Positions 5,587 through 50,963 of a stretch of 64,000 nucleotides of DNA are shown one piece after another. The position numbers and the translations under genes are program-made. How positions within the stretch are numbered: position 1 is the stretch's first letter; every line of letters begins with the position of its first letter. This DNA is from Clostridia bacterium (GTDB lineage Bacteria > Bacillota > Clostridia > Lachnospirales > Anaerotignaceae), in assembly GCA_022651385.1 (NCBI GenBank), contig JALCQR010000004.1, positions 1 through 64,000 on the forward strand, in the 5' to 3' direction. The notes below the pieces were generated by a model. It was not told where the DNA came from. It did not search any database and saw only the letters and a program-made list of their open reading frames with translations.

Positions 5587-6107
5587 CCGAGTTGAAAGAC
5601 ACAGTTGTAATTAAACAAAGCTTTTTAAAGCAGCTATTCATAACTGTTTTAGCAGCCCTAATGATGTGCGCAGGTATATTTTTGGTAATAACTAGAAGTG
5701 ATTTTATTGCATTTATAATTGGAATTATTTGCACATTTATATTTGGTATTTTCTTCATATTTTTTATTATAAGGTTACTTTTTTCGAAAACCATCCTCAC
5801 AATTGATTCAACCGGTTTTATAGATTGCTCATCATTTATGGCAAAAGGTAAAATAGTTTATTGGAGTGAAGTGAACGATATTTATATTTCATCAATCTCA
5901 GGTAAAAAGTTTATAAGTGTAATACTTAAAGAGCCTTATGACTATCTTGAAAAACTGCCATATATAAAGCGTCTTATGACTAAAGCAAATGTTAAGCTTT
6001 CGTTTGATTATATTTTAATTACACTTCAGGCTACAAATGCAAAATATGATGATGTTCTTGATATAATGAATAAATTTTTCTTAAGCCACAAAAACGAACA
6101 AGCATAA
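5583..6107 (+). CDS. two-TM membrane protein, STM3941-like
   Basis: GTG 5583 overlaps the stop of the 48-residue peptide. The 174-residue product has two adjacent membrane helices (about residues 16-38 and 42-66). A cytoplasmic beta-rich domain follows (LTIDSTGFIDCSS, then GKIVYWSEVNDIYIS, then KFISVILKEPYDYL), which resembles the PH-like domain of the uncharacterised STM3941 family. Members occur beside bacteriocin and toxin loci, where an immunity role has been suggested, but no function is established. The coupling to a small secreted peptide fits either an immunity or a sensing role. Confidence 0.6.
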   Translation: MTELKDTVVIKQSFLKQLFITVLAALMMCAGIFLVITRSDFIAFIIGIICTFIFGIFFIFFIIRLLFSKTILTIDSTGFIDCSSFMAKGKIVYWSEVNDIYISSISGKKFISVILKEPYDYLEKLPYIKRLMTKANVKLSFDYILITLQATNAKYDDVLDIMNKFFLSHKNEQA

Positions 6108-6471
6108 CGGGTTTAAACAAGAAGTTCTTTTATATTTAAATAAAGGAGAAAAATAACAGCTGTGTCACTAAAGTATGACGCAGCTAAAATTATGCCTGCC
6201 GACTGTTTTGACAGTGTATGCTTGTTAAAAACAATTATTATACTGACTTTACAAAATTATATATACTATTCAAATGGTCTTTGTTTATAAGAAATACAAG
6301 CATTTATGTGTGACGTGATTTATAGTGTGTATTTAAGTAGTAAATCTGGCAGGATGCATGTGTAAAAGTATTTCAATTTAAAGTTCTTTAAGAGCGATTT
6401 TATATTAAGTTATAGTGAGTTTTATTTTGGAATTGATTTGTTCATCTTTGTTCAGGTTGCTTAACCCCTTA
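6108..6471. other. convergent intergenic stretch
   Basis: 364 bases between two converging genes. The only structure I see is an AGCTGTGTCA/TGACGCAGCT hairpin (about 6158-6186) without a T tract. No gene is supported. Confidence 0.5.
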
Positions 6472-29608: not shown

Positions 29609-29769
29609 TTTGATTTATAGCGCTTGAGTAAATAAAATAATGATAACTAATTTGTTTTTATTAATAAGTATGGCTTTATATTATCTTCTTGAAACCTTTT
29701 TATTTATGTGTTATATTTTATAAAGTTCAGCTAAATATGTAATAATTTGGTAAAACATAGATTTTTATG

Positions 29770-29945
29770 TTTTTTAAAAGGGAAGAGGGGTGAAATTCCC
29801 CCACAGCTACCTCTACTGTAATTAATGACGATGGATTATTAGCCACTGTGAAAAATGGGAAGGCGATCCGGAGGATGAGTTATGAGTCAGGAGACCTGCC
29901 AGTTATGATGCAGGGAAGATTTTCCGGGTTAGGGGAAATAGCCTT
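29770..29945 (+). ncRNA. cobalamin riboswitch
   Basis: The consensus elements appear in order: GGGTGAAATTCCCCCACAGC, then CTACTGTAA, GCCACTG, GGGAAGGCGATCCGGAGGAT, and the B12 box AGTCAGGAGACCTGCC at 29885-29900. It ends with a short stem region before the operon. It should bind a cobalamin cofactor and repress the downstream uptake genes. A hairpin at about 29964-29991 (GTCTTGCT/AGCAGGAC) follows and may be the expression platform, although its T tail is weak. Confidence 0.95.
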
Positions 29946-40962: not shown

Positions 40963-41952
40963 ATGAACAAAAACAAATTAGTCGTTGTTGGAGTCGGACA
41001 TGTTGGCTCATATGTTTTAGCAGATGCCATGAAAATTGGTTTGTTTGCTGAAATCGGCGTAATTGATATTTTGGAAAATGTAGCTTATGGAGAAGCTCTT
41101 GATCAAGCACAAGCAACTGCCTTAACTTATATGAATAATATAGATGTTAAAAGCGGCGGATATGAGCAGTGTGCTGATGCCGATGTTATTATAGTTGCCG
41201 CTGGTCCTAGTATTATACCCGATCCTGATAATCCAAAGGGCGAACCAGATCGTACTTTATTAACAAAAACAAACTGTGAAGTTATTCGTAAAGTAATGAC
41301 TGGTATTACAAAATATACAAAAGAAGCTATTATAATTTTTATTACTAATCCATTGGATACAATGGTTTATATTGCTGAAAATGAGTTTGGTTATCCGGCT
41401 GGTCGTGTTTTCGGTACTGGAACAATGCTTGATTCCGCTCGTTTACGTAAATTAATTGCAGATACCTGTAATATTGATCCAAAATCTGTTACTGGATATA
41501 TGATGGGTGAACATGGCAGTACATCTTTCCCTGTTTTGAGTCACGTTAATGTTTCCGGTATTCCATTTACGGAGTTAAAAAAATATTTTGAAAAAGCGGC
41601 GGATATACAAAGTCCTGACGTTGTCAAATCGTCAATTGTTAGTGCTGCATATAAAGTATTTAATGGCAAAGGATGGACTAATGCCGGTGTTGCTCAGGCA
41701 GCTATAACTATGGCGAAGGCAGTTTTATTAGATGAAAGAAGCGTTTATCCTGCTTCTACTACTTTGCATGGACAATATGGTCATGATGGTGATGTGGCAT
41801 TAAGTATGCCATGTATCATTGGCCGCCAAGGTGTTTTGAAACAATTACCAGTGGAATTAAATAAGTGGGAAACGCAAAAACTGGAAGAATCAATTTCATT
41901 TATTCAAGCAACTATGCATGACGCAAAAACTGGTCCAGAGTTTACGAAATAA
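40963..41952 (+). CDS. L-lactate dehydrogenase-like 2-hydroxyacid dehydrogenase
   Basis: 329 residues from ATG 40963 (MNKNKLVVVGVG), with GGGAGA seven bases upstream. NAD-binding GVGHVGSY lies at 10-17, a substrate loop after VVAAGPS carries a longer than usual insert (IIPDPDNPKGEPDR), then ITNPLD, GTGTMLDSARLR and the catalytic GEHGS with H184. The lactate/malate dehydrogenase superfamily is certain. The long loop resembles L-2-hydroxyisocaproate dehydrogenases, so the substrate may be a branched or larger 2-oxo acid rather than pyruvate. It probably reoxidises NADH in fermentation. It abuts a truncated exporter gene. Confidence 0.85.
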   Translation: MNKNKLVVVGVGHVGSYVLADAMKIGLFAEIGVIDILENVAYGEALDQAQATALTYMNNIDVKSGGYEQCADADVIIVAAGPSIIPDPDNPKGEPDRTLLTKTNCEVIRKVMTGITKYTKEAIIIFITNPLDTMVYIAENEFGYPAGRVFGTGTMLDSARLRKLIADTCNIDPKSVTGYMMGEHGSTSFPVLSHVNVSGIPFTELKKYFEKAADIQSPDVVKSSIVSAAYKVFNGKGWTNAGVAQAAITMAKAVLLDERSVYPASTTLHGQYGHDGDVALSMPCIIGRQGVLKQLPVELNKWETQKLEESISFIQATMHDAKTGPEFTK

Positions 41953-42873
41953 ATCACTGGATAACATGATTTTATTCAGTGTAACTGTTATAATAGGCGT
42001 AATTATTATATAAAAAATAAGGTTTAAAAGAAATTCATTTGTTACACCGTTTCGTGTCACGAAAAGTGCTGCAGCAATTAAGATGGCAAAGACAGCATTG
42101 ATGACTGTGGTGTAAACGGTCATCGATATCCTTAAATCTTTCGTATAGGCAATTACCCATTTGCTGTAGTTATCAATAGAAGCCTTAAAATGCTTGAAAG
42201 AAAACACCGATTGTCCGAATGTTTTTACAACAGGAATTCCGCGTACGTATTCCACGGCTTCATTGGACATATCATCAAGCGCATTTTGATATTCTGACAT
42301 CTTTTTCTTCATTTTGCTGCCTGTCATAGTTCCCATAATTGCAAAAGCAACGACAACAGGGATAAGACTCAGAACACCAAGCCGCCAGTCAAAAATAATA
42401 AGCAGAGCCAGCAGTCCAATCGGGGTAGCATAAGCACCAGCCATATCTGGTAGTTGATGAGCAAGATATGTTTCAGTGGCAGCACTTGATTCATTTATAA
42501 TTTTGCGCATTTTTCCGCTGCCAATGCTGTCCATAAAACCGAGAGGAAGCGTTGCAATATGATGCATAGCATTAGAACGTATATTTGCCTGCACCCTAAA
42601 CGCCGCAATGTGAGAGCACATAAGTGCTGCAACATAAATCAGCATTGACAGCACCGCAAACAGCACTGCCATCCAGCCGTTATGCACAAGATTTTGTGCC
42701 TTTCCAAAATTTGGTGCAACATCCAATACTTCTTTGATGACTCGCCAGATGTAAATAAACGGCACAAGTGCCATCAAAGCACTTAGAATTGAAAGAATCC
42801 AAGATGAAACAGTCAGAATTTTAAATTTTCCGGCATAATCCATCAGCCTTGATAAATTAGATTGTTTTTTCAA
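41896..42873 (-). pseudogene. ABC exporter half-transporter, truncated before its ATPase domain
   Basis: TTG 42873 follows GGAGG at seven bases. Residues 1-308 form the six-helix type I exporter membrane domain (MRKIINESSAATETYLAHQL, then SNEAVEYVRGIPVVKTFGQS, then FYIIITPIITVTLNKIM). Homology stops at SSDLF near 41948, right where the convergent dehydrogenase gene ends, and the last 15 or so residues are antisense of that gene. The whole ATPase domain and the usual partner exporter are missing. The rearrangement that placed the dehydrogenase here removed the rest of the gene. It resembles IrtA/YbtP-type exporters of gut clostridia. Confidence 0.8.
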
Positions 42874-44263: not shown

Positions 44264-44291
44264 TTGACAAAAATCAGTTTTATGGTATTAT
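44264..44291 (+). promoter_or_regulatory. sigma-A promoter of the polyamine leader RNA
   Basis: TTGACA (44264-44269), a 16-nt spacer and TATTAT (44286-44291). The transcript should start near 44298, about 390 nt before speD. Confidence 0.85.
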
Positions 44292-44297
44292 ACTACT

Positions 44298-44666
44298 CGT
44301 ATAGAATAATAAACGGAGTTCTATGCAAATATTTTGGACCACTGCCGGAGACGGTAGTTAAAGCCATGCGGACAGCTGGGTCCAATGCCGATTGGCAACT
44401 CTTGTTGCCTTATTGATTGAGTTAAAAGCTCAAATTTTATAAGTTGGTTACTTAATAACCGATGTGCTTTGCGCATGATACTTGTGAAACGGTCAATAAG
44501 AGTAGTAAAAGTAAAATGTTTGCTATATAGACTCTGAATAGCCAAGTCTGTTTTTGGATTTGAAAATTGAAACTCATGGATATGATGTTTTTATTTTCTT
44601 GACATATCCAATAATAAACGCAAGTAGAAGGGCAAAAGCCCTATTTACTTGCGTTTTTTGTTTTTT
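44298..44666 (+). ncRNA. structured leader RNA of the spermidine operon, family unknown
   Basis: No protein is encoded here on the plus strand. Visible pairing: ATAGAA/TTCTAT (44301-44306, 44319-44324); TTGGACC/GGTCCAA (44334-44340, 44379-44385) enclosing ACTGCC-GGAGAC-GGTAGT. GGCAAC-TCTT-GTTGCC (44394-44409) competes with TGCC-GATT-GGCA. CTTATTGA/TCAATAAG (44409-44416, 44493-44500) closes a multiloop with TTGAG/CTCAA, GGTTA/TAACC and ATGTGC-TTT-GCGCAT hairpins. A weak AGACT/AGTCT-T5 stem (44529-44555) and the strong terminator at 44627-44666 follow. The promoter-structured RNA-terminator-ribosome site order is that of a riboswitch or attenuator, or of a separate small RNA. It matches none of the riboswitch consensus sequences I know (SAM, lysine, guanidine, cobalamin). 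Confidence 0.6.
44627..44666 (+). terminator. intrinsic terminator directly upstream of speD
   Basis: ACGCAAGTAGAAGGGC and GCCCTATTTACTTGCGT form a long stem with an AAAA loop, followed by TTTTTTG and a second T run. It ends only 19 bases before ATG 44685, so operon expression depends on readthrough. Confidence 0.92.
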
Positions 44667-44684
44667 TAATGGGGTGTGGTGATA

Positions 44685-45443
44685 ATGGAACAAAAAATGA
44701 CTCTCTATGGTTTTAATAATCTTACAAAATCTTTAAGTTTCAATATTTATGATGTCTGCTATGCAAAGAGCCAACGAGAACAAAAAGATTATATAGCATA
44801 CATTGACGAACAATACAATTCCGAACGTTTAACAAATATACTTACTCATGTTGTAGATATGATTGGTGCAAAGACGCTCAGTATATCAAGACAGGACTAT
44901 GATCCTCAGGGAGCCTCCGTAACGCTGCTTATTGCGGAGGGGACCATGGTGCCAATGGGTGACACGATTGTTGCACATTTGGATAAAAGTCATGTAACTG
45001 TGCACACTTATCCTGAATATCATCCTGACACCTGTCTTGCAACATTTCGGGTGGATATTGATGTTGCAACCTGCGGTGAAATTACTCCGCTTTCTACTCT
45101 GGATTATCTTATAGGGTCATTTGATTCTGATATTATAACCATGGATTACAGAGTGCGTGGTTTTACCCGTGATATGAAAGGTAAAAAGTTGTTTATGGAC
45201 CACGATATTGCATCAATTCAGGACTTTATTGATAAAAAAATATTAAGCGAATATGATGCGGTAGACATAAATGTTTATGGAGCAAATTTGTTTCATACAA
45301 AGATGCTTATAAAAGACCGTCCGCTTCAAAACTATCTGTTTAATGTGGACGAATATGAGCTGCCGCCGCAGACTCGCCTTAACATATCAAACAGCCTTCG
45401 ACGTGAAATGATTGAAATTTTCAGCGGCAGGAATGTATATTAA
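44685..45443 (+). CDS. speD: S-adenosylmethionine decarboxylase proenzyme
   Basis: I choose ATG 44685 ([13 protein letters not shown]) with GGGGTG eight bases upstream; in-frame GTGs just before it are also possible. The 252-residue protein is of the Escherichia coli SpeD class. The self-cleavage site is KSH in [13 protein letters not shown], giving pyruvoyl from S102. It decarboxylates SAM to provide the aminopropyl group for SpeE. First gene of a six-gene polyamine operon controlled by a structured leader. Confidence 0.94.
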
Positions 45444-45452
45444 GGAGTTGTC

Positions 45453-46907
45453 ATGAAAGAATTATCACAAACAAGAGCACCAATTTACGAAGCGCTTGAA
45501 AGGTTTCGAAAAATGCGCATAGTACCATTTGATGTACCGGGACATAAGAGGGGCAGAGGCAATCCTGAACTGGTTAAGCTTTTTGGAGAGCAATGTGTTG
45601 GAATAGATGTAAATTCCATGAAACCATTGGACAATCTTTGTCACCCTGTTTCTGTTATCAGAGAGGCAGAAGAACTGGCAGCTGAAGCATTTGGAGCTGC
45701 ACAAGCGTTTTTAATGGTTGGCGGAACCACATCTTCGGTACAGAGTATGGTGCTTGCAGCATGCAAACCGGGAGATAAGATTATACTTCCAAGAAATGTA
45801 CACCGCAGTGTTATAAACGCATTAGTGCTTTGTGGAGCAAAACCTGTATATGTTAATCCAGATATGAATCATCGCCTTGGAATTGCCCTTGGTATGAGAA
45901 CTGACCAGCTTGAGCAGGTGATTTTGGAAAATCCTGATGCTGTTGCAGTATTTGTCAACAATCCTACGTATTATGGCATATGTTCGGATATCAAAAAGAT
46001 TGTAAATTTGGCTCATAAGCATGGAATGTTGGTTTTGGCTGACGAAGCTCATGGGGCACATTTTTATTTCGGAGAGGGCTTGCCGGTTAGTGCCATGTCA
46101 GCAGGTGCCGACATGGCTGCCGTAAGTATGCATAAATCAGGGGGAAGCCTGACCCAAAGCTCATTTTTGCTTGTTGGACAAAAAGTCAGAGGTGGATATG
46201 TAAGGCAGATTATAAATTTGACCCAGACAACAAGTGCTTCATATTTACTTATGGCAAGCCTTGATATTGCAAGGCGAAATTTGGCTTTAAGAGGCAAGGA
46301 AGAATTTGCCAAGGTTATTGCAATGGCAGAATATGCAAGAGAAGAAATTAATAAAATAGGTGGATATTATGCCTACTCAAAGGAATTAATCAACGGAAGC
46401 AGTATTTTCGATTTTGATATTACAAAACTTTCGGTACACACATTAGATATAGGCCTTGCAGGTATTGAAGTATATGACATTCTTAGAGATGAATACGACA
46501 TTCAAATAGAATTTGGAGATTTAAGCAATATACTTGCCTACATATCTATTGGCGACAGAAAGCAGGATATTGAAAGACTGGTAAGTGCCATGGCGGAAAT
46601 CAAAAGGCGTTATCAAAAAGATAAAAATGGACTTATGAGTCACGAATATATTCCGCCTTCTGTGCTTGTAACACCGCAGCAGGCTTTTTACGCACCTAAG
46701 AAGGCATTGCCTCTGCGGGAATCGGTTGGAAAAGTATGCAGTGAATTTGTTATGTGTTATCCGCCGGGAATTCCTATTTTAGCTCCGGGAGAGGAAATTA
46801 CTGAAGATATTTTAGACTATATAGAGTATACCAAAAAAAAGGGCTGCTCAATTACCGGAACTGAAGACCCGAATGTGGAACATTTGAATGTATTGGAGGA
46901 GGTGTAA
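45453..46907 (+). CDS. speA: arginine decarboxylase, PLP fold type I
   Basis: 484 residues of the Orn/Lys/Arg decarboxylase class I family in its short Gram-positive form. The N terminus has PFDVPGHKRGRGN. PLP-binding landmarks are GGTTSSVQSMVLA, LADEAHGAHFYFG and Schiff-base lysine K228 in SMHKSGGS. The neighbouring agmatinase and aminopropyltransferase point to arginine as substrate (product agmatine), although lysine or ornithine cannot be excluded by motif alone. AAGGAG lies before ATG 45453. Confidence 0.9.
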   Translation: MKELSQTRAPIYEALERFRKMRIVPFDVPGHKRGRGNPELVKLFGEQCVGIDVNSMKPLDNLCHPVSVIREAEELAAEAFGAAQAFLMVGGTTSSVQSMVLAACKPGDKIILPRNVHRSVINALVLCGAKPVYVNPDMNHRLGIALGMRTDQLEQVILENPDAVAVFVNNPTYYGICSDIKKIVNLAHKHGMLVLADEAHGAHFYFGEGLPVSAMSAGADMAAVSMHKSGGSLTQSSFLLVGQKVRGGYVRQIINLTQTTSASYLLMASLDIARRNLALRGKEEFAKVIAMAEYAREEINKIGGYYAYSKELINGSSIFDFDITKLSVHTLDIGLAGIEVYDILRDEYDIQIEFGDLSNILAYISIGDRKQDIERLVSAMAEIKRRYQKDKNGLMSHEYIPPSVLVTPQQAFYAPKKALPLRESVGKVCSEFVMCYPPGIPILAPGEEITEDILDYIEYTKKKGCSITGTEDPNVEHLNVLEEV

Positions 46908-46909
46908 AA

Positions 46910-47761
46910 ATGGAGCTATGGTTTTCTGAACGTCATACACCAAATGTTAAGCTATCAATTAGTATTGACCGTCAGCTTTTTTCAGGTCAGAGTGAGTTTC
47001 AGAGAATTGACGTATTTGATTCCAAAGAATTTGGAAGATTTCTGACTTTAGACGGTTATATGATGCTGACAGAAAAAGATGAATTTATTTATCACGAAAT
47101 GATTACACACGTTCCTATGGCTGTTCATCCGGCAGCAAAACGAATTTTGGTAATAGGCGCGGGAGACGGCGGTGTTGTACGTGAACTTACACGATATGCT
47201 GCTGTGGAATGTATAGATATGGTTGAAATTGACCCGCTGGTAGTGCAGGTTTGCCGGGAATATATGCCAAAGACTGCATGCCGCTTTGATGACCACAGAG
47301 TAAATATTATATATGAAGACGGATTGAAATTTATAAGGTCAAAAGAAAATGAATATGATGTAATTATTGTGGATTCTACCGATCCGTTTGGGCCGGGAGA
47401 AGGGCTTTTTACCCGTGAGTTTTATGGCAATTGCTATAAAGCTTTAAAGGAAGACGGAATAATGGTTAATCAGCATGAAAGTCCGTTTTATGAAGCTGAT
47501 GCCCAGGCATGCCAGCGTGCGCACAAACGCATTGTAGAAAGTTTTCCTATAAGCCGAGTATATCAGGCACACATACCAACTTACCCGTCGGGACATTGGC
47601 TGTTTGGATTTGCTTCAAAACGTTATCATCCGGTTCATGATTTGGACGCAGTACGATGGGATATGTTAGGAATAAAGACAGGCTACTATACGCCACGGCT
47701 GCATGTTGGAGCTTTTGCATTGCCTGCATATGTGGAGGAGCTTTTGAGAGATGTTGAATAA
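46910..47761 (+). CDS. speE: spermidine synthase (aminopropyltransferase)
   Basis: 283 residues, full length. The N-terminal beta domain has LDGYMMLTEKDEFIYHEM, the SAM-like binding loop is GAGDGGVVREL near residue 82, and the proton acceptor lies in VDSTDPFGP. It transfers aminopropyl from decarboxylated SAM to putrescine, or to agmatine as in Thermus. Its place between speA and speB would suit either route. It overlaps speB by 11 bases. Confidence 0.93.
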   Translation: MELWFSERHTPNVKLSISIDRQLFSGQSEFQRIDVFDSKEFGRFLTLDGYMMLTEKDEFIYHEMITHVPMAVHPAAKRILVIGAGDGGVVRELTRYAAVECIDMVEIDPLVVQVCREYMPKTACRFDDHRVNIIYEDGLKFIRSKENEYDVIIVDSTDPFGPGEGLFTREFYGNCYKALKEDGIMVNQHESPFYEADAQACQRAHKRIVESFPISRVYQAHIPTYPSGHWLFGFASKRYHPVHDLDAVRWDMLGIKTGYYTPRLHVGAFALPAYVEELLRDVE

Positions 47762-48605
47762 AAATATAGAGACTTTTTTGGGCTGTGATTCAGATTACGA
47801 GCCATCAAAAATAGTTTTGTTTGGCGCGCCTTTTGACTCAACTACTTCTTACCGCCCGGGAACTCGTTTTGGAAGCAAAGCGATAAGAAGCGAATCTTTT
47901 GGTTTGGAGACATACAGCCCGTATCAGGATAAGGATTTAACTGACTATGCAGTATTTGACAGCGGTGAGTTGGAACTGCCTTTTGGCGAGCCGTCGCGTG
48001 CTCTTAAAGATATCGAAGAACGAACTGCTGCGATTTTGGATGACGGAAAGCTTCCGTTGATGCTTGGCGGAGAGCATTTGGTTACATTGGGTGCTGTGCG
48101 TGCGGCTGCAAAGAAATATCCGGATTTGCACATTATTCATTTCGATGCGCATACGGATTTGAGAGAAGATTATTTGAGTGTTCGGCTATCACATGCCTGT
48201 GTGATACGAAGATGCTGGGACATACTTGGTGACGGACGGATTTTTCAGTTTGGAATACGTTCAGGAACACGGGAAGAATTTTTGTGGAGCGATGAGGGAC
48301 ATGCCGAAACACATAAATTTGACTTTACATTTCTTAGTGAAACTGTATCAAAATTAAACGGAAAGCCGATTTATTTTACTATTGACCTCGATGTGCTGGA
48401 TCCGTCAGTGTTTCCGGGTACAGGTACGCCGGAGGCGGGCGGTGTGACGTTTATGGAGTTGTTAAATGCAATAAAAACTGTATGTGAAGGAAGCCGGGTT
48501 GTTGGCTGTGATGTAAATGAGCTCTCTCCTGCCCTTGATACAAGCGGGGCGTCTACTGCTGTGGCTTGTAAGGTTGTACGTGAATTACTGCTGAATTTAC
48601 TATAA
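47751..48605 (+). CDS. speB: agmatinase / ureohydrolase
   Basis: 284 residues of the arginase fold. The binuclear manganese ligands are GGEHLVTLG (His), HFDAHTDL (Asp/His/Asp) and TIDLDVLDPS (Asp/Asp). It hydrolyses agmatine to putrescine and urea. In an aminopropylagmatine route it could instead hydrolyse N1-aminopropylagmatine to spermidine. It overlaps speE and is followed by the carboxyspermidine genes. Confidence 0.93.
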   Translation: MLNKNIETFLGCDSDYEPSKIVLFGAPFDSTTSYRPGTRFGSKAIRSESFGLETYSPYQDKDLTDYAVFDSGELELPFGEPSRALKDIEERTAAILDDGKLPLMLGGEHLVTLGAVRAAAKKYPDLHIIHFDAHTDLREDYLSVRLSHACVIRRCWDILGDGRIFQFGIRSGTREEFLWSDEGHAETHKFDFTFLSETVSKLNGKPIYFTIDLDVLDPSVFPGTGTPEAGGVTFMELLNAIKTVCEGSRVVGCDVNELSPALDTSGASTAVACKVVRELLLNLL

Positions 48606-48631
48606 TATTAATATACATTAGGAGGACAAAT

Positions 48632-49834
48632 ATGGGGAAATTATTAATTATCGGCTGCGGTGGTGTTGCTTCTGTTGCAATCCACAAATGCTGCCAAAAC
48701 AGTGAGGTATTTGATGATATCTGTATTGCCAGCCGAACCAAATCTAAATGTGACGAGCTGAAAGCAAAGCTTGAGGGAACAACAAATACCAAAATTACCA
48801 CTGCTAAAGTGGACGCAAATGATACAGAGGCACTTATTAAGTTAATTAATGAGTATCAGCCTGTTGCTGTTTTAAATCTGGCACTGCCGTATCAGGACTT
48901 GACTATAATGGAAGCGTGTCTTGCCACAAAAGTTCATTATATTGATACTGCAAATTACGAGCCTGAAGATACAGCAAAGTTTGAGTACAGCTGGCAGTGG
49001 GCTTACCGTGAAAAATTTGAAAAGGCTGGAATTACTGCACTTCTCGGCAGTGGTTTTGACCCCGGAGTAACAAGTGTATTTTCAGCTTATGCACTAAAAC
49101 ACTATTTTGATGAGATTAATTACATTGATATTTTGGACTGTAATGCAGGTGACCATGGTTATCCATTTGCAACTAATTTCAATCCTGAAATTAATATACG
49201 AGAGGTATCGGCTAAAGGTTCATACTGGGAAAATGGGAAGTGGGTTAAAACTGAACCTATGGAGATTAAGCGAGAATATAATTTTCCTCAAATCGGTCCA
49301 AAGGATATGTACCTTCTTCACCATGAGGAAATTGAATCCTTGGCGCTTAACATGCCGGGAATAAAGCGTATTCGCTTTTTTATGACTTTTGGTCAGAGTT
49401 ATCTTACACATTTAAAATGTCTTGAAAATGTAGGAATGACATCTATTGAGCCTATAATGTATGAAGGCAAAGAGATTATTCCTCTTCAGTTTTTAAAAGC
49501 CGTTTTGCCTGACCCGTCGTCTCTCGGCCCGCGTACAAAAGGCAAAACAAATATTGGATGTATTTTTATAGGCAAAAAGGACGGAAAAGAGAAAAAACTG
49601 TATATATATAACGTTTGTGACCATGAAGAGTGCTACCGTGAAGTAGGTTCTCAAGCTGTGGCATATACAACAGGTGTTCCGGCCATGATTGGTGCTATGA
49701 TGATTTTGACAGGACAGTGGAATAAAGCAGGGGTTCATAATATCGAAGAATTTAATCCTGATCCTTTTATGGATGCGCTAAACAAATGGGGACTTCCATG
49801 GATTGTTACCACAGAGCCTGAGTTGGTAGACTGA
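48632..49834 (+). CDS. carboxy(nor)spermidine dehydrogenase
   Basis: 400 residues of the saccharopine-dehydrogenase-like family. It has an N-terminal Rossmann loop GCGGVASVAIH (8-18), SRTKSKCDELK, GSGFDPGVTSVFSAYALKHY and a C-terminal TTGVPAMIGAMMILTG. The family condenses putrescine (or diaminopropane) with aspartate semialdehyde and reduces the product with NADPH to carboxyspermidine. AGGAGG lies before ATG 48632. It is coupled to the decarboxylase two bases downstream. Confidence 0.92.
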   Translation: MGKLLIIGCGGVASVAIHKCCQNSEVFDDICIASRTKSKCDELKAKLEGTTNTKITTAKVDANDTEALIKLINEYQPVAVLNLALPYQDLTIMEACLATKVHYIDTANYEPEDTAKFEYSWQWAYREKFEKAGITALLGSGFDPGVTSVFSAYALKHYFDEINYIDILDCNAGDHGYPFATNFNPEINIREVSAKGSYWENGKWVKTEPMEIKREYNFPQIGPKDMYLLHHEEIESLALNMPGIKRIRFFMTFGQSYLTHLKCLENVGMTSIEPIMYEGKEIIPLQFLKAVLPDPSSLGPRTKGKTNIGCIFIGKKDGKEKKLYIYNVCDHEECYREVGSQAVAYTTGVPAMIGAMMILTGQWNKAGVHNIEEFNPDPFMDALNKWGLPWIVTTEPELVD

Positions 49835-49835
49835 T

Positions 49836-50963
49836 ATGCATGCAAATGAGCTTCCAACACCATGCTATCTGGTTGACGAATTGTTAATTCGCAAAAATCT
49901 TGAATGCCTAAAAGGTGTAATGGATAGGACAGGATGCAAAATACTGTTGGCACAAAAGGCTTTTTCAATGTTTGCTCTATACCCGCTTATAGGAGAATAT
50001 CTGTGCGGAACTGCTGCCAGCGGACTTTATGAAGCACGGCTTGGGGCAGAAAAAATGGGTAAGGAAAACCATATTTTTTCTCCGGCTTATCGTGAAGATG
50101 AGTTTGACGAGATTACACGCTTATGTGACCATATTGTATTTAATACCCCTGAGCAGATTGTACGATTTGGGAAAAAGGCAAAAGCCGCAGGGAGAAGTAT
50201 TGGACTAAGAATAAATCCAGAGTGCTCAACACAGGAGGAACATGCGATTTATAACCCATGTTCTCCGGGTTCAAGGCTTGGAACTACATTGGCTAATTTC
50301 CGTGAAGAGTTGCTATGTGAGATTGACGGGCTTCATTTTCATACTCTTTGTGAGCAGAATTCAGATGCTTTGGTCACTACATTGGCAGCTGTAGAAGAAA
50401 AGTTCGGTTCATATCTTGGAAAAATGAAATGGATTAATTTTGGCGGAGGTCACCATATAACAAAAGAAAACTATGATATTTCTGCATTGGAAAATGAAAT
50501 TTTGAGGATACAGGAGCGTTATGGTGTTCAGGTTTATATTGAACCGGGTGAAGCTGTGGCGCTAAATGCGGGATTTTTGTACACAACTGTTTTAGAGACA
50601 ATGAAAAATGAAATTTCAATTGGAATTTTGGATGTTTCTGCTGCATGCCACATGCCAGACGTACTTGAAATGCCATATCGTCCGACGCTTATTAATTCAG
50701 GCAAAGCAGGAGAGAAAGCCTATACATTTAGATTGGCAGGGTCTACATGTCTTGCTGGAGATGTAATAGGTGATTATTCTTTCGATAGACCGCTGAAAAA
50801 AGGTGACCGTCTTATTTTTGAAGACATGGCAATCTATTCTATGGTAAAGAATAATACTTTCAACGGCATGGCACTGCCTGCAATAGCTTTGCGAAATGAA
50901 CAAGGAGATTGCAGTATTATAAGGCAGTTTGGATATGAAGATTTTAAAAACAGACTTTCGTAA
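49836..50963 (+). CDS. nspC: carboxynorspermidine/carboxyspermidine decarboxylase
   Basis: 375 residues of fold III PLP decarboxylases. The Schiff-base lysine is K41 in LAQKAFSMF. Other landmarks are FHTLCEQN, NFGGGHHIT, a PLP-phosphate loop YIEPGEAVALNAGF and a cysteine in STCLAGDVIGDY that fits the active site. It converts carboxyspermidine to spermidine. Last gene of the operon, followed by a strong terminator. Confidence 0.93.
   Translation: MHANELPTPCYLVDELLIRKNLECLKGVMDRTGCKILLAQKAFSMFALYPLIGEYLCGTAASGLYEARLGAEKMGKENHIFSPAYREDEFDEITRLCDHIVFNTPEQIVRFGKKAKAAGRSIGLRINPECSTQEEHAIYNPCSPGSRLGTTLANFREELLCEIDGLHFHTLCEQNSDALVTTLAAVEEKFGSYLGKMKWINFGGGHHITKENYDISALENEILRIQERYGVQVYIEPGEAVALNAGFLYTTVLETMKNEISIGILDVSAACHMPDVLEMPYRPTLINSGKAGEKAYTFRLAGSTCLAGDVIGDYSFDRPLKKGDRLIFEDMAIYSMVKNNTFNGMALPAIALRNEQGDCSIIRQFGYEDFKNRLS

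Follow-up and report, generated by a model that had tools for sequence, protein, structure and literature searches.

Leader and operon

The window, a 64,000-nucleotide stretch of contig JALCQR010000004.1 from a Clostridia bacterium, contains a spermidine operon preceded by a structured leader. The relevant features, with the evidence for each where it is specific, are the following:

44264..44291, +: sigma-70-type promoter, TTGACA at 44264-44269, 16-bp spacer, TATTAT at 44286-44291 (sequence)
44301..44324, +: 5' hairpin ATAGAA/TTCTAT at the transcript start (counterparts of other sequence in relatives, by eye)
44325..44335, +: 5' strand of pseudoknot PK0, GCAAATATTTT (covariation by permutation)
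44336..44391, +: domain I, the RF02440 match, with P1 (44336-44340/44379-44383), P2 (44341-44346/44353-44358) and P3 (44362-44364/44375-44377)
44369..44390, +: proposed pseudoknot PK1, P3 loop CGG(A)CA at 44369-44374 with TGCCG at 44386-44390 (near-invariance)
44394..44409, +: hairpin P4, GGCAAC/GTTGCC (covariation)
44410..44499, +: domain II, closed by P5 (44410-44416/44493-44499) (covariance model R1)
44417..44486, +: inner helices of domain II, P6 (44417-44433), P7 (44438-44444/44480-44486), P8 (44446-44460) and P9 (44462-44476)
44479..44486, +: switching strand TACTTGTG, either the 3' strand of P7 or, in the antiterminator, paired to the terminator 5' arm (duplex energies, native against swapped)
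44500..44534, +: P10, GAGT/ACTC, whose loop carries the 3' strand of PK0
44513..44523, +: 3' strand of PK0, AAAATGTTTGC (covariation by permutation)
44616..44667, +: intrinsic terminator, hairpin at about 44616-44656 and T run to 44667
44619-44626, +: terminator 5' arm CGCAAGTA, target of the antiterminator
44685..45443, +: speD, first gene of the operon, an E. coli-type SAM decarboxylase (NCBIfam TIGR03331, E 7.9e-118)
45453..50963, +: remaining operon, namely an Orn/Lys/Arg-type decarboxylase (speA-like), speE, speB, a carboxynorspermidine synthase-like gene and nspC (NCBIfam)

Both the promoter and the strong terminator had been pointed out in an initial annotation of the locus, and both are real: the terminator is a hairpin of -28 kcal/mol with a T run, ending about 19 nt 5' of the ATG at 44685. 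Given the promoter, a transcript start near 44298 is a reasonable expectation. That the leader is strongly folded, with many stems, is confirmed by comparison with dinucleotide shuffles, which yields z = -7.0 for 44330-44670 and z = -5.1 for 44298-44548. In the operon, nspC, speE and agmatinase score above the NCBIfam cut-off, and the speA-like decarboxylase and the carboxynorspermidine synthase-like protein below it.

Elsewhere in the window lie a Cobalamin riboswitch aptamer (RF00174, 97.5 bits) at 29730-29917 (+) and an ABC exporter-like membrane ORF at 41896-42873 (-), which adjoins a TetR-like gene and, with only 325 aa, is perhaps truncated.

Relatives of the leader

A cmscan search finds the Rfam family RF02440 (SpF59_sRNA, "Streptococcus sRNA SpF59 (ldcC RNA)") at 44336-44391, with 58.7 bits for a gathering score of 37.2; the leader matching it has one copy in the whole genome. 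The initial annotation recognised no known family, and held that a significant Rfam match would speak against its reading. Such a match exists, and the statement fails in its letter. In substance it stands for most of the RNA: the RF02440 model, of Rfam type Gene; sRNA, has 54 positions, about one quarter of what is conserved, and Rfam at permissive thresholds gives no credible family for 44392-44670. The remaining three quarters, the fold and the cis role are described neither by RF02440 nor in the papers searched.

A genome search over the family, the class and the phylum, using RF02440 and a pattern taken from the core CGGACRGCYNGGTCNNNNGCCGA, and dropping coding matches, yields about 145 distinct relatives. 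The stretch 44300-44536 is conserved as a whole across them: conservation continues for about 150 nt beyond the Rfam model, through TTATTGATTGAG..CTCAAATTTTATAAGTTGG..ACTTGTGAAACGGTCAATAAGAGTAGTAAAAGTA..TTGCTATATAGACTCTG, and the segments CCAUNCGGACAGC, GUAGUAAAAGUA and UUUUAUAAGUUGG are invariant. The hosts are mainly Clostridia, Bacilli, Negativicutes and Erysipelotrichia, with single members in Lactococcus, Spirochaetota (L082) and Synergistota (L129); the pneumococcal locus is represented by the Lactococcus sequence (L122), a stand-in for the family.

The covariance model R1 has 212 positions and 52 pairs. It fits each of 100 selected relatives over its whole length, where those among the 57 sequences that built it match by construction. 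Applied to a sample of 398 genomes of the phylum, R1 detects 25 genomes and RF02440 detects 18, all within the 25; the seven matches found by R1 only are diverged relatives, all upstream of speD or speA.

Some matches were set aside. High-GC actinobacterial matches to the pattern (for example L019, L030, L044 and L058) resemble coding DNA and were dropped, and none of five pattern matches in viral contigs had the remainder of the RNA, with zero matches in the three that were rescanned with R1. Two weakly scoring Holdemania sequences are left out of the count: L017 (485-628, 21.9 bits with R1), which sits ahead of a lipoprotein-like gene, and L057 (183-281, 37 bits) resemble domain I without domain II, and are possibly solo domains or chance matches. 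At L101 (5838-6200, -), two adjacent R1 matches, 6008-6200 and 5838-6000, look as if an insertion had split the RNA.

A conserved fold

The conserved fold of the leader comprises ten helices, a long-range pseudoknot and the downstream terminator. In the alignment of relatives, standard pairs fill 93.3% of the pair cells, compared with 85.2% in shuffles and 31-39% with slid partners. Double changes occupy 542 cells, compared with 182 in shuffles, and 39 of 65 pairs are changed on both sides; since the nested pairs served to fit the alignment, these counts lean towards them. A phylogeny-aware test, with a tree-based null of our own, places every significant pair inside the structure and none outside. 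The significant pairs fall in P1, P2 and P4, so that the covariation in relatives proposed as a check on the original reading is indeed found; in P4 they are 44398/44405 and 44399/44404. Domain I is further supported by A-U replacing G-C in P3. Judged by eye, the hairpins that lie 5' of PK0 in the relatives differ in sequence (TTGGAAAG/CTTTCCAA, TTGGATAG/CTATCCGAA and others). P9 aligns badly and has weak support, 56% of its cells being paired.

The 8-bp pairing of 44409-44416 with 44493-44500, reported earlier as closing three hairpins, exists: its core is P5, conserved in 100 relatives, and it encloses the hairpins P6, P8 and P9, plus the stem P7. Both P5 and P10 are nearly invariant, and a Synergistaceae member (L129) has compensatory changes in each: TGTTGA/TCGACA in P5 and GAGC/GCTC in P10. 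Most of P5 and P10, like PK1, rests on few such compensations. Two competing hairpins had also been proposed at 44386-44409. One of them, GGCAAC/GTTGCC, is the conserved, covarying P4; the other, TGCC/GGCA, is rejected: it is not how TGCC is used across the family, where the invariant GCCG suits a pseudoknot with the P3 loop instead. This would be PK1, a probable second pseudoknot: four of its five pairs are invariant in 100 sequences, a pattern consistent with the pairing and unproven by covariation.

The long-range pseudoknot, PK0, is an 11-bp pairing of 44325-44335 with 44513-44523 that was absent from the earlier reading and is not part of R1. When native pairings are compared with swapped ones, z = -14, and the native pairing is better in 36 of 43 mutually distant representatives (p 4e-6). 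Its counterparts in relatives include GCAAATAT/ATATTTGC, GCAGATAATT/AATTATTTGC and GCAGAAGA/TCTTCTGC.

Two other pairings concern the window itself. A 5' GAGT that would pair with ACTCT instead of P10 was rejected for the family, the upstream GAGT being present in only 62 of 139 sequences, and is kept as a window-specific alternative. In addition, 44398-44407 (ACTCTTGTTG) can pair over 10 bp with 44494-44503 (CAATAAGAGT), rivalling P4 and P5 and lowering the predicted P5 to 0.23; this pairing looks particular to the window sequence.

Two exclusive structures

A terminator is present downstream in 138 of 140 relatives. In the window, the strand 44479-44486 pairs with 44619-44626 of the terminator 5' arm, the same strand being used by P7. 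For the terminator 5' arm and the segment that contains the P7 3' strand (44471-44495 in the window), comparing the native segment with that of another species gives z = -12.4, and the native pairing is better in 34 of 42 distant representatives (p 3e-5); control segments taken from P1/P2, P5/P6 and P10 have no such effect, with values near 0. The antiterminator duplex uses the P7 strand itself in 106 of 138 cases. Terminator/antiterminator control is thus well supported, and the leader has the mutually exclusive structures of a riboswitch expression platform.

Before the terminator 3' arm is transcribed, the P7 state is computed at -96.5 kcal/mol and the antiterminator state at -94.7 kcal/mol, a difference of 1.8; once the terminator is complete, the P7 state is favoured by 16 kcal/mol. 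These modelled energies are as expected for a terminator/antiterminator switch in which stabilisation of P7 would turn the operon off.

Genes behind the leader

The first downstream gene is one of polyamine synthesis or uptake, on the same strand, in 113 of 116 loci. By Pfam, these first genes are AdoMet_dc (36), OKR_DC_1 (33), ABC_tran (29, of which 24 with TOBE_2) and Sacchrp_dh_NADP (15), respectively SAM decarboxylases, Orn/Lys/Arg decarboxylases, ABC ATPases and proteins of saccharopine-dehydrogenase fold (carboxyspermidine synthases). For the six ABC ATPases that were tested, spermidine/putrescine transporter models give the highest scores, in some cases under the curated cut-off, and one ABC ATPase operon continues with a potC-like permease. 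In example operons from Bacilli, carboxyspermidine synthase is followed by nspC. The exceptions (L010, 723-958, and others) have as next ORF a COesterase carboxylesterase at one locus and a peptidase M28 protein at two, apparently L062 and L103.

The leader is thus a conserved, structured 5' element tied to one pathway, as a riboswitch would be. Conservation in several phyla, covariation, the terminator with its antiterminator, and the polyamine genes strongly support the initial annotation in its reading of a leader of the riboswitch or attenuator type. As to the ligand, it listed a polyamine, SAM, arginine and agmatine; of these, a polyamine suits the gene associations best. With the carboxyspermidine synthase-nspC operons and the potABCD-type operons taken into account, the common metabolites narrow to spermidine or putrescine, spermidine as shared end product and putrescine as shared intermediate.

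Proposed mechanism and its rivals

The stretch 44298-44667 probably serves the spermidine operon as a cis-acting leader that terminates transcription, with a polyamine aptamer likely at 44300-44536 and spermidine as the likeliest ligand, working as an OFF switch. Direct binding of a small molecule, spermidine as that molecule and the OFF direction are what we infer, the choice of spermidine coming from pathway logic. Under this model the aptamer, a large pseudoknotted RNA, would fold and bind a polyamine, probably spermidine. In the bound state ACUUGUG (44480-44486) would be held in P7, the terminator 44616-44656 would form, and transcription would stop short of speD. At low polyamine levels, the strand 44480-44486 would pair with the terminator 5' arm at 44619-44626; the terminator would be blocked, and speD-speA-speE-speB-casdh-nspC would be transcribed. 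The OFF direction is tentative in Streptococcus, because reports on the effect of polyamines on potABCD expression conflict (PMC8744998).

The same terminator/antiterminator RNA could sense another metabolite: putrescine, agmatine, arginine, SAM, decarboxylated SAM or MTA. The genes speA, speB and speD of the window operon do handle these compounds, and gene association alone is unable to separate putrescine from spermidine. However, some of the operons encode carboxyspermidine synthase and nspC, a route without SAM derivatives, and others potABCD-type uptake; end-product feedback favours spermidine, putrescine is a possible ligand, and on balance we find a ligand other than spermidine unlikely. 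Less likely again is control by a protein or by the ribosome, where an RNA-binding protein or the translation of a leader peptide would choose between P7 and the antiterminator. A large, conserved fold could be protein-bound, and the window does contain a 12-codon ORF (MQIFWTTAGDGS, 44323-44361, +, with its ATG at 44323 and GGAG before it) that overlaps PK0 and domain I, six members having an ATG at the same place. But an ORF of at least 6 codons that has both a start codon and a ribosome site exists at this position in only 22 of 148 members, and the P1-P1' spans are evenly distributed modulo 3, therefore no frame is conserved: the leader-peptide attenuator, which calls for a conserved short ORF with a ribosome site, is rejected on these counts, and no gene other than polyamine genes is seen travelling with the RNA.

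A separate small RNA was another suggestion of the earlier reading, and it is how Rfam files SpF59: a trans-acting RNA of type Gene; sRNA, beside an operon that would be incidental. It is catalogued among sRNAs in the pneumococcal literature (PMC3395615, PMC12323649), F59 appears under a lung phenotype in one review (PMC4387999), and termination would let an RNA of about 330-370 nt build up. Its same-strand position just upstream of polyamine genes in the 113 loci weighs heavily the other way, and an antiterminator makes sense only in cis; we regard a trans-acting RNA as very improbable, though the terminated product may have some secondary role. As for chance folding of an AT-rich leader, its sole argument is the low G+C content, and with all conservation and covariation tests contradicting it, its probability is negligible.

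Comparison with known systems

The T-box and SAM riboswitch leaders of Bacillota consist of a promoter and a large structured leader in which an antiterminator competes with a terminator. The present leader shares this layout, and the genes differ; it has no match to T-box, SAM-I or other aptamer models in the Rfam search (E up to 10). The only known spermidine riboswitch is a SAM-I variant, a rare class of 13 examples (Salvail et al. 2023, PMC10853860). Like our leader, it precedes polyamine genes in Gram-positive hosts and is a terminator/antiterminator transcriptional OFF switch, a direction that for the leader we infer; but its aptamer is the four-stem junction of SAM-I, unrelated to the leader in fold and sequence, and membership is rejected, as 44230-44720 matches zero SAM families with E values up to 10. 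Association with polyamine genes is also shared with the motifs speF and odc1 of alphaproteobacteria and potE of Veillonella, odc1 being a uORF motif (PMC11477304, PMC8632094). Unlike odc1, the leader has no conserved ORF, and it matches none of the speF, odc1 and potE Rfam models. Among the open-literature papers searched in full text, none describes it as a riboswitch or polyamine leader.

Polyamine riboswitches have long been sought, and one rare class is proven (PMC10853860); the leader RNA, in 25 of the 398 sampled phylum genomes, is far commoner. Because it is common and fronts both spermidine-making routes as well as the uptake system, it offers a concrete, testable candidate for a second class. 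We put at about even the chances that it forms an undescribed, widespread and unusually large (about 240 nt, two pseudoknots) class of spermidine riboswitches, unrelated to the SAM-I-variant class and governing how Clostridia, Bacilli, Negativicutes and others make and take up polyamines, with RF02440 as a fragment.

In the pneumococcus, F59/srn235 has SP0915 and SP0916 as its neighbours, with SP0916 on its own strand and F59/srn235 between the two (PMC3395615), and a 2025 sRNA survey places it at TIGR4 869478-869804, 327 bases (PMC12323649); SP_0916 is an arginine decarboxylase (PMC7531197). It occupies the same place as the leader, upstream of a polyamine gene, and Rfam's nickname 'ldcC RNA' is a hint that its curators saw the neighbouring gene. 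If our reading is true, this 'sRNA' with a reported lung phenotype would be reclassified as the switch of an arginine decarboxylase operon, and the 54-nt Rfam entry would be replaced by a 240-nt one with a defined mechanism.

RF02440 corresponds to P1-P3 and the UGCCGA tail of the leader RNA. The Rfam family is a Streptococcus sRNA gene of 54 positions, and the leader RNA a cis-acting unit of about 240 nt found in many classes: by score the leader is a member, but a stand-alone 54-nt sRNA is at odds with the 212 positions spanned in all 100 selected relatives and with the leader position before polyamine genes. At locus L199 (whole-genome handle G469, 581-749), upstream of speA, almost all of P1-P3 is missing and domain II is kept. 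Because of this, RF02440 is not the indispensable core, domain II being the less dispensable of the two parts. L199 is also a natural deletion, useful for learning the role of domain I.
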